DNA of 10,343 bases. It comes from Belnapia sp. GTDB taxonomy: Bacteria > Pseudomonadota > Alphaproteobacteria > Acetobacterales > Acetobacteraceae. Both the position numbers and the translations under genes were made by a program. Below the pieces are notes generated by a model that worked only from the letters and a program-made list of their open reading frames with translations, had not been told where the DNA came from and made no database searches. Where the stretch lies: contig JAQGIA010000456.1 in the NCBI GenBank assembly GCA_028291445.1, positions 1 through 10,343 of the forward strand. Direction: 5' to 3'. This document shows positions 4,146 through 10,343 of the stretch, piece by piece (positions within the stretch are counted from its first letter, which is position 1; every line of letters starts with the position of its first letter).

Positions 4146-5047
4146 GCCAGCAGACCCCTCGCGGCGGTCAGCGCCTGGTCCAGGGTCAGGCTCGCCATGC
4201 TGTCGAGGGCCGGGCTGTCCGGCGCGATGGCGGTCGCGGTGCGGCGGCCGGACGGGGCGTACTCACCGACGCGGGAGGGACCGAACAGGCCGAGGGTCGG
4301 CGCCCCGGCGGCGGCCGAGAGATGCATCAGCCCGCTGTCGTTGCCGATGAACAGGGCGCAGCGGGCCAGCACCGCGGCGGCTTCCGGCAAGGCGATGCTG
4401 CCGGCCAGATCCACCGCGCGGTCGCCGAGCGCGGCCAGCACCGGGGCGGCCATGGCCCGCTCCTGCGCGCCGGGGCCGCCGAGGATGACGGCGCGGGCGC
4501 CGGCCAGCGGCTGGCCGGGGGCGGTCAGCGCCTCGAACAGGGCGACGAAGCGCTCGGCCGGCCAGACCTTGCGGTCCCAATTGGCGGTGGGACCGAGGCC
4601 GATCCAAGGGCCCTCGCCCGGCAGCAGGGCGGCGGCGCGGGCCCGGTCGGCGGCGCTGAACCAGGCGACCGGCAGCGGCGGCGGATTGAGCCCGAACAGC
4701 GCGCCGAGATGGCCAAGCCGCGGCCCCGGCTGGCGGCCGCCGCGCATCACCACCCGCCGCCTGGCGCGGACCAGCCAGGCGAAGGCCGAGCCGCGCAGGT
4801 CGACCACCAGGTCCCAGCGTTCCCGCCCGACCTCCCGCCATAGTTCCAGCCAGTGCAGGCGCAGGCGGCGCTTGGTCAGCAGGATGGTCCAGGCACGGTT
4901 GGGCATGCGGGCGAAGACGCCCTCGGCCGCCGGGCCGCAGGCGACGACGATCTTGGCCTGGGGCCAGGTCCGGATGAGGTGGTCCAGCAACCCGGTGGAC
5001 AGGACGGCATCGCCGATCCGGGTGGCGGTGATGAAGAGAATGCGCAC
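4142..5047 (-). CDS. ADP-heptose:LPS heptosyltransferase-like glycosyltransferase, GT9 family
   Basis: A 301-residue GT9 protein. It starts VRILFITATRIGDAVLST, with the family's N-terminal R-x-GD-x2-L-(S/T) motif at 10-18. The donor-binding signature IGNDSGLMHLSAAAG (234-248) is followed by TLGLFGPS (251-258). GPTANWDRKVWP (152-163) matches the family's strand and loop before the C-terminal domain. These enzymes add heptose from ADP-heptose to the LPS inner core in the cytoplasm; WaaC and WaaF are the models, and this protein is somewhat shorter. The open frame runs far upstream, but the GTG at 5047 is the only start that begins cleanly at the first strand. It has only a weak CGGAG close upstream. 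It is the first gene of the five-gene minus-strand operon, so the operon promoter should lie in 5048-5152. The exact acceptor is not determined. Confidence 0.92.
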   Translation of the reverse strand: MRILFITATRIGDAVLSTGLLDHLIRTWPQAKIVVACGPAAEGVFARMPNRAWTILLTKRRLRLHWLELWREVGRERWDLVVDLRGSAFAWLVRARRRVVMRGGRQPGPRLGHLGALFGLNPPPLPVAWFSAADRARAAALLPGEGPWIGLGPTANWDRKVWPAERFVALFEALTAPGQPLAGARAVILGGPGAQERAMAAPVLAALGDRAVDLAGSIALPEAAAVLARCALFIGNDSGLMHLSAAAGAPTLGLFGPSRVGEYAPSGRRTATAIAPDSPALDSMASLTLDQALTAARGLLA

Positions 5048-7907: not shown

Positions 7908-8405
7908 TCAGCCGATCTGCCGCAGCCACTCCTGGAGGTTGTAGTAGGTGCTCACCCGGGCGATCAGCCCGTCCTCGAGGGTGAAGAAGGCACCGGCCGG
8001 CAGGCGGTAGTGCTGGCCGCGGGCGGCGGGCAGGCCGGCATCGGTCGCCAGGTATTCCCCCTCCACCACGAATTCCGCCGCGGCACGGGCGCCGGTCGCA
8101 TCGACCATCACCACCAGGCCAGTGATGGTTTCGCGATAGCTCCGGTCCATGTGGTGGAGGAAGTCGCGGAAGGCCTGCTTGCCGGTCTCGCGGGCGCCCT
8201 GGTTCACGTCATGCGCCACGGTCTCGGTGAGCAGCGCCAGCATGGCCTCCCGGCTGTCCCCATTCCCGCCGACCTGGCCGAAGGCGGCGTAATAGGCCCG
8301 GATCAGCGCCTCGGCCCGGTCCCTGGCTTGCTCCCTGGCATGCTGGTCCCCGGCTTGGTTCCCGCCTTGGTCCCCGGCAGGCTGCGTCGTATCGGTCTGG
8401 CTCAT
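7908..8405 (-). CDS. NTF2-like, ketosteroid-isomerase-related (SnoaL-like) protein
   Basis: A 165-residue protein. A Gln-, Gly- and Asp-rich tail (1-28) precedes a compact alpha+beta cone fold: helices at [13 protein letters not shown] (30-42) and [19 protein letters not shown] (52-70), then strands such as [11 protein letters not shown] (109-119) and [18 protein letters not shown] (134-151), ending [14 protein letters not shown]. The pattern GEYLxTDxGLPxARGQxYxLPAGAFF is what I associate with the conserved ketosteroid-isomerase-related family; its reaction is not established. It may be an enzyme or a small-ligand binder. The ATG at 8405 has AGGA (8416-8413) seven nt upstream. The gene is divergent from glyQ across 64 bases and convergent with the lysozyme-like gene. 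The Gln-rich tail is encoded by degenerate 12-base repeats. Confidence 0.85.
8344..8379. repeat. Degenerate 12-bp tandem repeat in the NTF2-like gene
   Basis: Three consecutive units (TGGTCCCCGGCT, TGGTTCCCGCCT, TGGTCCCCGGCA) encode the [12 protein letters not shown] tail on the minus strand. Weaker, offset versions of the unit continue toward 8317. It lies wholly in the N-terminal extension, ahead of the folded domain. Confidence 0.75.
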
Positions 8406-8469: not shown

Positions 8470-9369
8470 ATGCAGACCGCGCCCGCCTCTCCCCTCGCCT
8501 CTCCAGGCCTCCGCGCCAAGCCGCTCAGCTTCCAGGACATCATCCTGACGCTGCATCGCTATTTCGCGGCCCAGGGCTGCCTCATCCTGCAACCCTACGA
8601 CATGGAGGTCGGCGCCGGCACCTTCCACCCGGCGACCACCCTGCGGGCGCTGGGCCCGAAGCCCTGGAAGGCGGCCTATGTGCAGCCCAGCCGGCGGCCC
8701 TCGGACGGGCGCTACGGCGAGAATCCGAACCGCCTGCAGCATTACTACCAGTATCAGGTGATCCTGAAGCCGAGCCCCCGGGATCCGCAATCCATGCTGC
8801 TCGATGCCTATCGGGCGCTGGGGCTGGACCCCAAGGTGCATGATTTCCGCTTCGTCGAGGACGACTGGGAAAGCCCGACGCTCGGCGCCTGGGGCCTCGG
8901 CTGGGAGGTCTGGTGCGACGGGATGGAGGTGACGCAGTTCACCTATTTCCAGCAGGTCGGCGGCATCCCCTGCGCGGTGCCCTGCTGCGAGCTGACCATC
9001 GGCCTGGAGCGGCTGGCGATGTACCTCCAGGGCAAGGACAGCATCTACGACCTCGACTTCAACGACGAAGGCGTGAAGTACGGCGAGGTCTTCCTGCGGG
9101 CCGAGCGGGAATACAGCGCGCACAACTTCGAGCATGCCGACGTGCCGATGCTGTTCCGCCATTTCGAGGATGCCGAGCGCGAATGCGCCGCCCTGCTGGC
9201 CCAGCATCTGGCGCTGCCGGCCTATGACCAGTGCATCAAGGCCAGCCACCGCTTCAACCTGCTGGATGCGCGCGGCGCGATCAGCGTGACCGAGCGGGCG
9301 GCCTATATCGGCCGGGTGCGGACGCTGGCCAAGGGCTGCTGCGAGGCTTGGCTGGCGGGCGAGCGATAG
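8470..9369 (+). CDS. glyQ: Glycyl-tRNA synthetase alpha subunit
   Basis: A 299-residue alpha chain of the bacterial (alpha-beta)2 glycine-tRNA ligase, which attaches glycine to tRNA-Gly in the cytoplasm. The alpha chain carries the class II catalytic core: [17 protein letters not shown] (21-37), [14 protein letters not shown] (41-54), [20 protein letters not shown] (74-93), [18 protein letters not shown] (131-148), [14 protein letters not shown] (152-165) and the motif-3-like IGLERLAMY (177-185). Near the end, [18 protein letters not shown] (259-276) is also a conserved segment. Length agrees with the family. The ATG at 8470 has AAAAGG six nt upstream; the open frame upstream of it lacks similarity. 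It is complete with all expected motifs. Its partner glyS starts only at 10058, because a vapBC module lies between them; in most genomes the two subunit genes are adjacent or nearly so. Confidence 0.98.
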
Positions 9370-9396
9370 GGTAGAATGTTCGTCAGCGTTCTACCC
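9348..9396 (+). promoter_or_regulatory. Probable vapBC promoter with overlapping palindromic operator
   Basis: TTGGCT (9348-9353) and TAGAAT (9372-9377) form a sigma-70-like promoter with an 18-base spacer at the end of glyQ. The -10 element sits in an inverted repeat, GGGTAGAA (9369-9376) / TTCTACCC (9389-9396), perfect over 8 bp; inner bases TG/CG extend the RNA stem by a U-G and a G-C pair. The left arm begins at the last base of the glyQ stop codon. The right arm abuts the vapB ribosome binding site. This is where VapB antitoxins normally bind to repress their own operon. As RNA it could also act as a hairpin between glyQ and vapB. The repeat is seen; its use is inferred. Confidence 0.6.
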
Positions 9397-9402
9397 GGGA
9401 GG
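9397..9402 (+). promoter_or_regulatory. Ribosome binding site of vapB
   Basis: GGGAGG ends 5 nt before the vapB ATG and directly follows the right arm of the palindrome, so folding or repressor binding there could also limit access of ribosomes. Confidence 0.75.
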
Positions 9403-9407
9403 CTCGC

Positions 9408-9668
9408 ATGGGCCAGTTGAACATCAAGGATGCAGCCTTGATCGCCGAGGCCAGGGAACTCGCCGCGCTCATCGGCACCACCACGACGGAGGCGATCCGG
9501 CAGGCGGTGCATGAGCGCCTGGCGCGCGAGACCTTGGCGCGGGACGACCACCGGCGCCGGCGGTACGAGGCGATCATGGAAATCTCCGATCGGACCGCGA
9601 AGCTTTTCCCCCCGGGGACGAGCAGCGATCACTCCGATCTCTATGATGAGATTGGTCTGCCGAAGTGA
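9408..9668 (+). CDS. vapB: VapB-type antitoxin (Rv0623/PSK transcription-factor family)
   Basis: An 86-residue protein with the pattern of the Rv0623-like VapB family: LNIKDAALIAEARELAALIG (4-23), TTTTEAIRQAVHERLARE (24-41) and a charged helix RDDHRRRRYEAIMEI (45-59). The N-terminal part is expected to form a ribbon-helix-helix DNA-binding dimer. The C-terminal tail, ending DHSDLYDEIGLPK, is the usual toxin-wrapping segment, with the typical SDxLYDExGLPK ending. It neutralises VapC and represses the operon. The ATG at 9408 has GGGAGG five nt upstream and a palindromic operator just before that. Its stop overlaps the vapC start as GTGA, as is normal for coupled antitoxin-toxin pairs. Assignment rests on motif and arrangement, and both agree. 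Confidence 0.92.
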   Translation: MGQLNIKDAALIAEARELAALIGTTTTEAIRQAVHERLARETLARDDHRRRRYEAIMEISDRTAKLFPPGTSSDHSDLYDEIGLPK

Positions 9669-10054
9669 TCCTCGACACCTCCGCCATCATGGCCATCCTG
9701 CGGCGGGAGCCGGAACGGGATGCCTTCACCGTGGCACTCAGCGGCGCTGCCCGGCCGGCCATCTCGGCCGCGACCCTGGTCGAGCTGATGCTGGTCAGCG
9801 AAACCCGGGCCGGGCCGTCGGTGCGGCCGGAGGTCGATCTGCTGCTCGCCCGATCGGCGGTCGAGGTGGTGCCTGTCACCGCCGAGCATGCCGCCCTCGC
9901 CGCCGAGGGCTGGCGCCGCTATGGCAAGGGCCGCCACCCCGCCGGGCTGAACCTCGGCGACTGCTTTGCCTATGCGCTGGCCCGGCAGCGCGACCAACCC
10001 CTGCTGTTCAAGGGCGGCGATTTCGCCCAGACCGATGTGAAGGCCGCGCTGTAA
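9665..10054 (+). CDS. vapC: VapC-type PIN-domain toxin ribonuclease
   Basis: A 129-residue PIN-domain protein of usual VapC length. Acidic residues in the expected order are D4 (MILDTSAI), E40 (ATLVELML), D99 (LNLGDCFAYALA) and D119 (LLFKGGDFAQTD), with D124 as a further candidate. These bind Mg/Mn ions in the active site. VapC toxins are endoribonucleases; characterised members cut tRNAs (initiator tRNA-fMet or particular elongator tRNAs) or the 23S rRNA sarcin-ricin loop. The target of this one cannot be read from sequence. All key residues are present, so it is probably active. The GTG start overlaps the vapB stop by four bases, ensuring coupled synthesis. glyS begins 3 nt after the vapC stop, so the toxin gene is transcriptionally upstream of an essential gene. 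Confidence 0.94.
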   Translation: MILDTSAIMAILRREPERDAFTVALSGAARPAISAATLVELMLVSETRAGPSVRPEVDLLLARSAVEVVPVTAEHAALAAEGWRRYGKGRHPAGLNLGDCFAYALARQRDQPLLFKGGDFAQTDVKAAL

Positions 10055-10057
10055 CCC

Positions 10058-10343
10058 ATGCCTGAATTGCTGATCGAGCTATTCTCCGAGGAAATCCCGG
10101 CCCGCATGCAGGCCCGGGCGGCGGAGGATCTGTGCCGGCTGCTCCAGGCCGAGCTGCGCGCCCTGATGCCCGCCCCGCCCCGCCCGCTGTCGGGCCCCCG
10201 CCGCATCGGCCTGGTGGGGGAGTTGGCGGCCCGCGCCGAGACCCCCGGCAAGGAGGAGCGCGGCCCGCGCATCGGTGCGCCGCAGCAGGCGCTCGACGGT
10301 TTCCTGCGCAAGCACGGCGCGACCCAGGACCAGTTGACGCAGG
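10058..10343 (+). CDS. glyS: Glycyl-tRNA synthetase beta subunit, 5' part only
   Basis: The first 95 residues are visible; full-length beta chains are near 700 residues. It begins MPELLIELFSEEIPARM, the conserved GlyS opening (typically xLLxExxxEExP), and continues with SGPRRIGLVGELAARA and RGPRIGAPQQALDGFLRK, matching the early (T)PRR and GP...A..GF landmarks of the family. The beta subunit supplies tRNA recognition and completes the heterotetramer with GlyQ. The ATG follows the vapC stop after CCC. No Shine-Dalgarno sequence lies at normal distance; the nearest AAGG is 14 nt upstream, so reinitiation from vapC translation is likely (inference). Transcription must come through vapBC, from the glyQ promoter, the vapBC promoter, or both. 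Confidence 0.95.
   Translation, partial: MPELLIELFSEEIPARMQARAAEDLCRLLQAELRALMPAPPRPLSGPRRIGLVGELAARAETPGKEERGPRIGAPQQALDGFLRKHGATQDQLTQ

Follow-up and report, generated by a model that had tools for sequence, protein, structure and literature searches.

A vapBC toxin-antitoxin pair between glyQ and glyS in Belnapia and its relatives: spread, losses and replacement of a contact segment

The purpose of chromosomal toxin-antitoxin (TA) modules is an old question, and such modules are usually described as erratically distributed. Among described systems, the pair considered here is closest to two of type II, Mycobacterium tuberculosis VapBC30 and Sinorhizobium meliloti VapBC10, whose toxins are tRNA-Ser anticodon nucleases; an excerpt of PMC10945364 describes S. 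meliloti VapC10 as cleaving two tRNA-Ser at CU(U/G)G^AA, and VapC30, which is highly homologous to VapC10, as cutting tRNA-Ser too, at (U/C)G^A. TA pairs within operons or at intergenic sites are known from enterobacteria, with ccd at folA-apaH in Escherichia coli O157:H7, mazEF in relA-mazEFG and yafNO in dinB-yafNOP given as examples in a section of PMC7167474. The present analysis concerns a vapBC pair lying between glyQ and glyS, the genes for the alpha and beta subunits of glycyl-tRNA synthetase, on a contig of 10,343 nucleotides from Belnapia sp. (JAQGIA010000456.1, assembly GCA_028291445.1, family Acetobacteraceae); this whole stretch is referred to as the window. Decay of ccdO157 in E. 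coli was reportedly treated by Mine in 2009. In type I restriction systems, specificity modules of hsdS are exchanged within fixed flanks, between conserved ends.

Like the enterobacterial pairs of the ccdO157 type, the junction pair occupies a fixed intercistronic site at which presence, decay and absence are found among relatives (intact pair in 16, counted relic in 6 and empty junction in 34 of 56 family genomes). It differs from them in being compatible with one origin over many genera, in the replacement of a segment within the TA pair, and in its position between the subunit genes of one essential enzyme. With hsdS it shares conserved ends and an exchangeable specificity part, but here the exchanged part spans two genes, the toxin and antitoxin faces moving together. 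With VapBC30 and VapBC10 it has in common a PF07704 antitoxin and a PIN toxin encoded in an overlapping bicistron, the likeness to VapC10 resting on the VapC10-VapC30 homology given in the excerpt of PMC10945364, as the alignment made here is with VapC30; unlike both, it stands within glyQ-glyS, and its contact segment is exchanged between species. In the open-access literature, covered by titles and abstract openings with subscription papers and preprints outside the scope, no account was found of vapBC at glyQ-glyS or of its allele replacement; a Bosea VapC paper (PMC8522696) was set aside as a precedent, because glyS serves merely as a control mRNA in the part of that paper concerned. As far as these searches reach, the kind of system is known, and the novelty lies in the address, in how long the pair has resided there and in the exchange of its contact segment. 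The junction vapBC occupies one address in many genera, and a single origin is compatible with this; since the pair has been deleted naturally in some sister species and has swapped alleles naturally in others, ready comparisons are available in which genus and flanks are the same and the toxin is different or missing.

Spread, origin and losses of the junction pair

In the window, glyQ (8470..9369; PF02091, E 4.6e-140; an alternative in-frame ATG lies at 8404), vapB (9408..9668), vapC (9665..10054) and the first 95 codons of glyS (10058..10343; PF02092, E 7.8e-12 on the N-terminus; truncated by the contig end) follow one another on the + strand at successive distances of 38, -4 and 3 bases; the open reading frames (ORFs) thus confirm the gene order and spacing of the first-pass annotation. 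The profile searches that it had proposed for the two middle genes gave matches above cut-off in both cases, to PF07704 for the PSK_trans_fac/Rv0623-like antitoxin VapB (E 8.5e-16, 59.1 bits, cut-off 28.3) and to PF01850 for the PIN-domain toxin VapC (E 1.5e-20, 74.5 bits, cut-off 23.6). The traits of a type II VapBC are present, namely a PIN toxin with invariant acidic residues and a Rv0623/PSK_trans_fac antitoxin that is encoded first and overlaps the toxin; vapC starts with GTG, and the 4-base overlap with vapB reads GTGA. The acidic residues D4, E40, D99 and D124, which we take to be catalytic, are invariant in all 16 aligned junction VapCs. The closest solved relatives by sequence are M. 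tuberculosis VapC30 (4xgq_A, 1.5e-30), the sole match to vapC among PDB sequences at E <= 0.001, and VapB30 (4xgq_B, 7e-4); a search of NCBIfam returned no model matching vapB or vapC. Judged by these comparisons, the junction pair is a true vapBC of the VapC30/VapC10 type, and it is probably a functional TA module.

Of the 347 family genomes searched, at least 74, spread over 34 of 102 genera, carry a full-length vapC directly before glyS, and this count is a lower bound. It includes 60 further VapC regions, with weaker rows and several second or mid-list matches (e.g. G272 and G148) left out. The spacing between vapC and glyS is 2-47 nt in 73 of these 74 junctions and 111 nt in the remaining one. 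Because the order recurs so widely, glyQ-vapB-vapC-glyS is not a chance pairing. In a set of 100 relatives, glyQ was located in 87, glyS in 89 and VapC in 34, and 60 stretches around these genes were compared. Outside the family, the set has 40 class-level genomes; 32 of these gave a glyS match, none of them with an adjoining VapC match by coordinate comparison, and the 29 loci examined from a class-wide VapC search (385 genomes; two of the 29 came from the search of relatives) contained no glyQ or glyS. Among named GTDB genomes, the loci of 13 of the best 80 VapC relatives included glyQ or glyS; these belong to Roseococcus, Plastoroseomonas, Falsiroseomonas, Belnapia, Roseomonas, Rubritepida and metagenome-assembled genomes (MAGs), and by NCBI rank 11 fall in Acetobacterales, one (L140) is placed only to Rhodospirillales and one (L138) only to Alphaproteobacteria. 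A recent insertion peculiar to the window genome is ruled out by this spread together with the scars described below.

The descent of the pair was followed on a VapC tree of 171 rows, comprising 74 junction VapCs, 31 from elsewhere in the relatives and family sets, and 66 named others. The junction label requires 3 changes on this tree, as compared to 55.5 by shuffling, and the best split leaves zero junction rows outside; a single clade of junction VapCs was not rejected (approximately unbiased, AU, test, p 0.31). The junction VapCs are thus compatible with one origin. A hot spot that has taken up unrelated vapBCs several times is not favoured, since only one of the 31 VapCs from elsewhere (G161) lies within the best split, and it represents a contig-cut junction, its contig ending at vapC with glyQ 328 bases upstream. 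A tree of glyQ and glyS was built for 56 of the 60 family genomes in the relatives set (G011, G019, G045 and G056 were excluded because genes were absent or incomplete). A single subtree, with 41 rows and a support of 91, contains every occupied row (16) and every relic row (6), 15 of the 34 empty rows lie outside it, and 10 changes separate occupied-or-relic from empty, for which one gain followed by repeated losses would be the simplest reading. The first-pass annotation had stated that the same intervening genes at this junction throughout the order, vertically inherited and with no regulatory link, would refute its reading; half of that picture was found, namely the pair at its junction across the genera counted above, with one origin compatible.

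Losses left visible traces. Two Belnapia junctions that had appeared empty (G002 and G005) retain the final vapC codons (TDVKAAL plus stop) 3 bases before an intact glyS, with scar scores of 5.8 and 13.2, respectively, against a maximum of 1.07 in 2,200 shuffles; by junction comparison, the retained portion corresponds to the last vapC codons and the spacer at 10028..10057 (+ strand) of the window. The remaining relics are more varied: G024 retains vapB and the vapC tail, G009 has a vapB-like gene (PF07704, 1.3e-10) and no vapC at the junction, G007 is borderline (score -3.9, with the 99.9% point at -4.0), and G031 was counted by eye only, its tail score lying within the shuffles. Altogether, 3 of 8 Belnapia species have an intact glyQ and glyS but have lost the pair. 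The 'unusual protection' that an essential operon had been expected to give the module was therefore not borne out, relics being counted in 6 of the 56 family genomes (one by eye, one borderline); scars in front of an intact glyS in two Belnapia species mean that a place in this operon does not secure the pair against loss.

Other inserts occur at the same junction. In G126, a gene of the beta-lactamase family (PF13354, E 2.9e-45; L284:908-1759) lies between glyQ and vapB within roughly 2 kb of inserted DNA. In G025 (L089, approximately 4243-5044), some 800 bases separate glyQ from glyS and are open through a frame of 267 codons with no Pfam match at E <= 0.01, and in G081 (L123), outside the family, 2504 bases are inserted between glyQ and glyS. 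In G057 (L120), a shorter second vapB-like frame, noted by eye, precedes the intact vapBC and is perhaps the leftover antitoxin of an earlier allele.

Replacement of the contact segment

Between junction genomes of the same genus (73 pairs), the median identity amounts to 0.90 for GlyQ, 0.68 for VapB and 0.62 for VapC. Where the flanks are nearly identical, the clearest pairs show the 3' half of vapB and the 5' two thirds of vapC at only 53-71% DNA identity, synonymous sites included. In the window this exchangeable segment extends from about vapB residue 41 to vapC residue 85 (9528..9919, + strand), the limits being approximate, drawn from pairwise comparisons and differing by pair. For G040 and G316, identity in glyQ is 94-100% over most windows of comparison (90% in one), is only 53-62% between the late part of vapB and a point about two thirds into vapC, and recovers in glyS to 90-99%, with only 81% in the last comparison window. 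The proportions of synonymous and non-synonymous differences (pS/pN) of this pair follow the same course, from 0.14/0.00 in glyQ and 0.00/0.00 in vapB 1-30 to 0.44/0.36 in vapB 31-86 and 0.56/0.41 in vapC 1-85, and back through 0.37/0.19 in vapC 86-129 to 0.06/0.00 in glyS 1-25.

A broader comparison comprised 47 close pairs from 12 genera, defined as pairs of the same genus with a fourfold-site difference in the flanks of <= 0.40; the pairs share genomes and are not independent. Replacement was called where the amino-acid difference of the cassette was >= 0.30 and the fourfold excess had p < 0.01, the cassette being vapC 1-85 alone where the vapB start was not located. Both thresholds were passed by 16 of the 47 pairs, in 6 of the 12 genera, and 8 of the 47 lie below the Bonferroni limit for synonymous excess. 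In the passing pairs the amino-acid difference peaks in vapB 41-70 (0.60-0.67) and vapC 11-80 (0.38-0.75), and is only 0.08-0.23 in vapC 91-129. Since synonymous sites diverge in the cassette between near-identical flanks, the segment was replaced by recombination. The pair G003 (Belnapia moabensis DSM 16746) and G006 (Belnapia sp. F-4-1) drops to 59-71% DNA identity, and its fourfold difference rises from 0.16 in the flanks to 0.52 in the cassette (p 4.2e-8); as both are isolates, the replacement is not a binning artefact. As a control, a vapBC that several family genomes have in common at one other locus aligns through at 93-94% with no dip (L286/L290 and L279/L285).

A different exchange concerns the front of glyS. 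In G358 (L229), G309 (L250) and G247 (L249), glyS residues of approximately 25-125 are replaced by a very different N-terminal part, nearly identical in G247 and G309. Between G040 and G358, the N-terminal part of glyS shows 43-55% DNA identity, and the following glyS 91-96% up to the last comparison window. A search with the glyS front of G309 gave 13 proteins at E <= 1e-8 among 244 candidates, the named ones being GlyS, some of them from Roseomonas or alphaproteobacterial MAGs.

Control region and competing explanations

The end of glyQ and the short gap before vapB carry the putative control elements. An inverted repeat, GGGTAGAA-N12-TTCTACCC, was read directly at 9369..9396 (either strand) and, in view of the motif counts, is a probable VapB operator; a promoter-like TTGGCT-18-TAGAAT in the glyQ 3' end (9348..9377, + strand), a consensus match only (1 found, shuffles mean 0.0, sd 0.2), overlaps this operator-like site. 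By eye, the paired motif takes the form GGTAGAA...TTCTACC in Belnapia and that of a direct repeat of TTCTACC in many other genera, and an RNA hairpin as the conserved element before vapB is not favoured for this reason. The vapB start was located in 63 of the 74 junctions (the other 11 were excluded, and G101 and G237 gave an empty stretch); at least two TCTACC/GGTAGA hexamers occur in 50 of these 63 stretches, against a shuffle mean of 0.045 and 0 of 35 empty junctions. The hexamer pair is present at 54 of 74 junction loci, as compared to 1 of 30 vapC loci elsewhere. No terminator-like sites were found in 9150-10200. Some genomes have vapBC with glyS and without glyQ, as in G049, where glyQ lies on a different contig. 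In genus g49 (G173 and G055), glyS follows vapBC with no glyQ within the stretch examined, two TTCTACC sites lie ahead of vapB, and the nearest plausible upstream gene, judged from ORFs, is encoded on the other strand, which suggests that g49 glyS probably depends on the vapBC promoter. Taken with the promoter- and operator-like site before vapB, the absence of terminator-like sites in that interval and the short vapC-glyS gaps, this layout makes co-expression of vapBC with glyS likely, and VapBC may regulate itself at the predicted operator. An essential tRNA-charging gene would then stand behind an apparent TA promoter, in a group with culturable Belnapia and Roseomonas relatives.

The explanation that we consider probable as a whole is that a resident VapBC entered the glyQ-glyS junction, was inherited there with losses, and had its contact segment replaced by recombination. 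On the simplest view, a module of the VapC30/VapC10 type would have arrived a single time, early in the history of a large section of the family, which the named loci place in Acetobacterales, and would since have been inherited at the junction and repeatedly lost. On its glyQ side it probably has a promoter and a VapB operator of its own, and it is probably transcribed together with glyS. The contact segment, in which the vapB 3' half and the vapC 5' two thirds are contiguous, would be replaced by recombination with other alleles of the junction lineage. What is retained is the 5' end of vapB, which presumably encodes the DNA-binding part of VapB, together with the operator and, in the majority of pairs, the 3' end of vapC. 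As the contact faces are adjacent in the DNA, a single recombination tract moves both, and the exchange suggests how new TA pairs may arise without self-poisoning. The most likely driver would be selection for pairs that are not cross-neutralised by plasmid-borne VapBC relatives, or that neutralise these (anti-addiction). VapC relatives were found in 483 of 72,556 plasmid records (217 conjugative; 15 at 60-80% identity and the remainder lower), and a weak relative in only 2 of 50,697 phage records; given these counts and the lack of a PADLOC match, interaction with plasmid-borne VapBC is favoured over phage defence. More tentatively, the junction may be a long-lived TA 'socket' in which the contact module is exchanged as a unit under selection for new specificities, with regulation and the vapC-glyS link preserved by the conserved DNA-binding end of VapB, the operator and the tail of vapC, and glyS of g49 and similar lineages might be expressed only from a VapBC-controlled promoter.

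Several observations weigh against this explanation. Of the 47 close pairs, 31 fail the replacement thresholds, 12 by amino-acid difference and 19 by a high amino-acid difference without clear synonymous excess, and the control is a single other locus which may have spread recently. In the passing pairs the difference in glyS 21-130 is raised to 0.16-0.38, partly from pairs with the glyS front replaced, so that the tract is not restricted to vapBC everywhere. Monophyly of VapBC by genus was not rejected (AU p 0.44 for Belnapia, 0.85 for g34, 0.73 for g142 and 0.088 for g135), and exchange between genera was dropped as a firm claim on account of these four genera. On the VapC tree, the junction rows have 18 named VapCs nested among them, 16 of which come, to judge by their record titles, from outside Alphaproteobacteria, and with its few columns the one-origin result is a matter of compatibility and not proof; the 10 changes on the glyQ and glyS tree, 22 of whose 53 inner branches are open, leave room for regain. 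Finally, 0 families of PADLOC match vapB or vapC at E <= 0.01.

The repeated losses and relics would equally be expected of a selfish TA pair that inserted into the operon by chance and drifts towards loss, with no function for glyS, no selection of alleles and divergence through fast protein evolution, and pairs inside operons without a functional link are known according to the same section of PMC7167474. Fast protein evolution does not, however, produce a jump in synonymous divergence between near-identical flanks, and the other vapBC locus of the family lacks such a dip, which makes chance insertion an unlikely account of the locus. A built-in regulator, in which VapBC at its operator would set the supply of GlyS, and loss of antitoxin would raise toxin and glyS together and couple charging to toxin dose, finds more in its favour: operator- and promoter-like sites lie ahead of vapB, the vapC-glyS gaps are short and no terminator-like site was seen, and in g49 glyS follows vapBC without glyQ, behind a divergent neighbour. 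It is a possible reading that we nevertheless regard as doubtful, given that 34 of the 56 family genomes do without the pair, that 6 have lost or broken it with glyQ-glyS intact, and that the related toxins cut tRNA-Ser and not tRNA-Gly.

The variety of alleles at one fixed site and the frequency with which the pair is lost also resemble what is seen in defence genes, and the locus could be read as an anti-phage abortive-infection system whose alleles were diversified by phage antitoxins; the scarcity of VapC relatives in phage as compared to plasmid records and the missing PADLOC match render this improbable. Far less probable still is an artefact of assembly or binning, by which MAG chimeras would mimic a mismatch of flank and cassette. 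The window makes up the whole of contig C219, in a genome broken into 687 contigs (completeness 75.1), and a second contig of the bin, C104 (G000:C104:1-3878, L084), opens within a vapC 71% identical to that of the window, followed by a complete glyS with 89% identity to the window glyS over the first 95 residues; C104 shows the vapC-before-glyS side only, as it starts inside vapC with the glyQ side outside it. With two vapCs preceding glyS in one bin, the window MAG probably mixes two related organisms, each with vapC before glyS. Against an artefact stand the two isolates, which show the drop, and the scars, which are single contiguous stretches.

Candidate target of the toxin

Since VapC10 and VapC30 cut tRNA-Ser and the VapC10 motif is found in tRNA-Ser of Belnapia, tRNA-Ser would be the first candidate target of the junction VapC, for which anticodon nuclease activity may be assumed by analogy. 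In a test of tRNA loops at 70 loci, a subset of all tRNA matches, the VapC10 cleavage motif occurs in 2 of 4 Belnapia tRNA-Ser loop types and in none of the 3 Belnapia tRNA-Gly anticodon-loop types. The swapped front part of vapC could have altered the target. The looser VapC30 motif, (U/C)GA, is present in 11 of 47 loop types, which belong to several amino acids.

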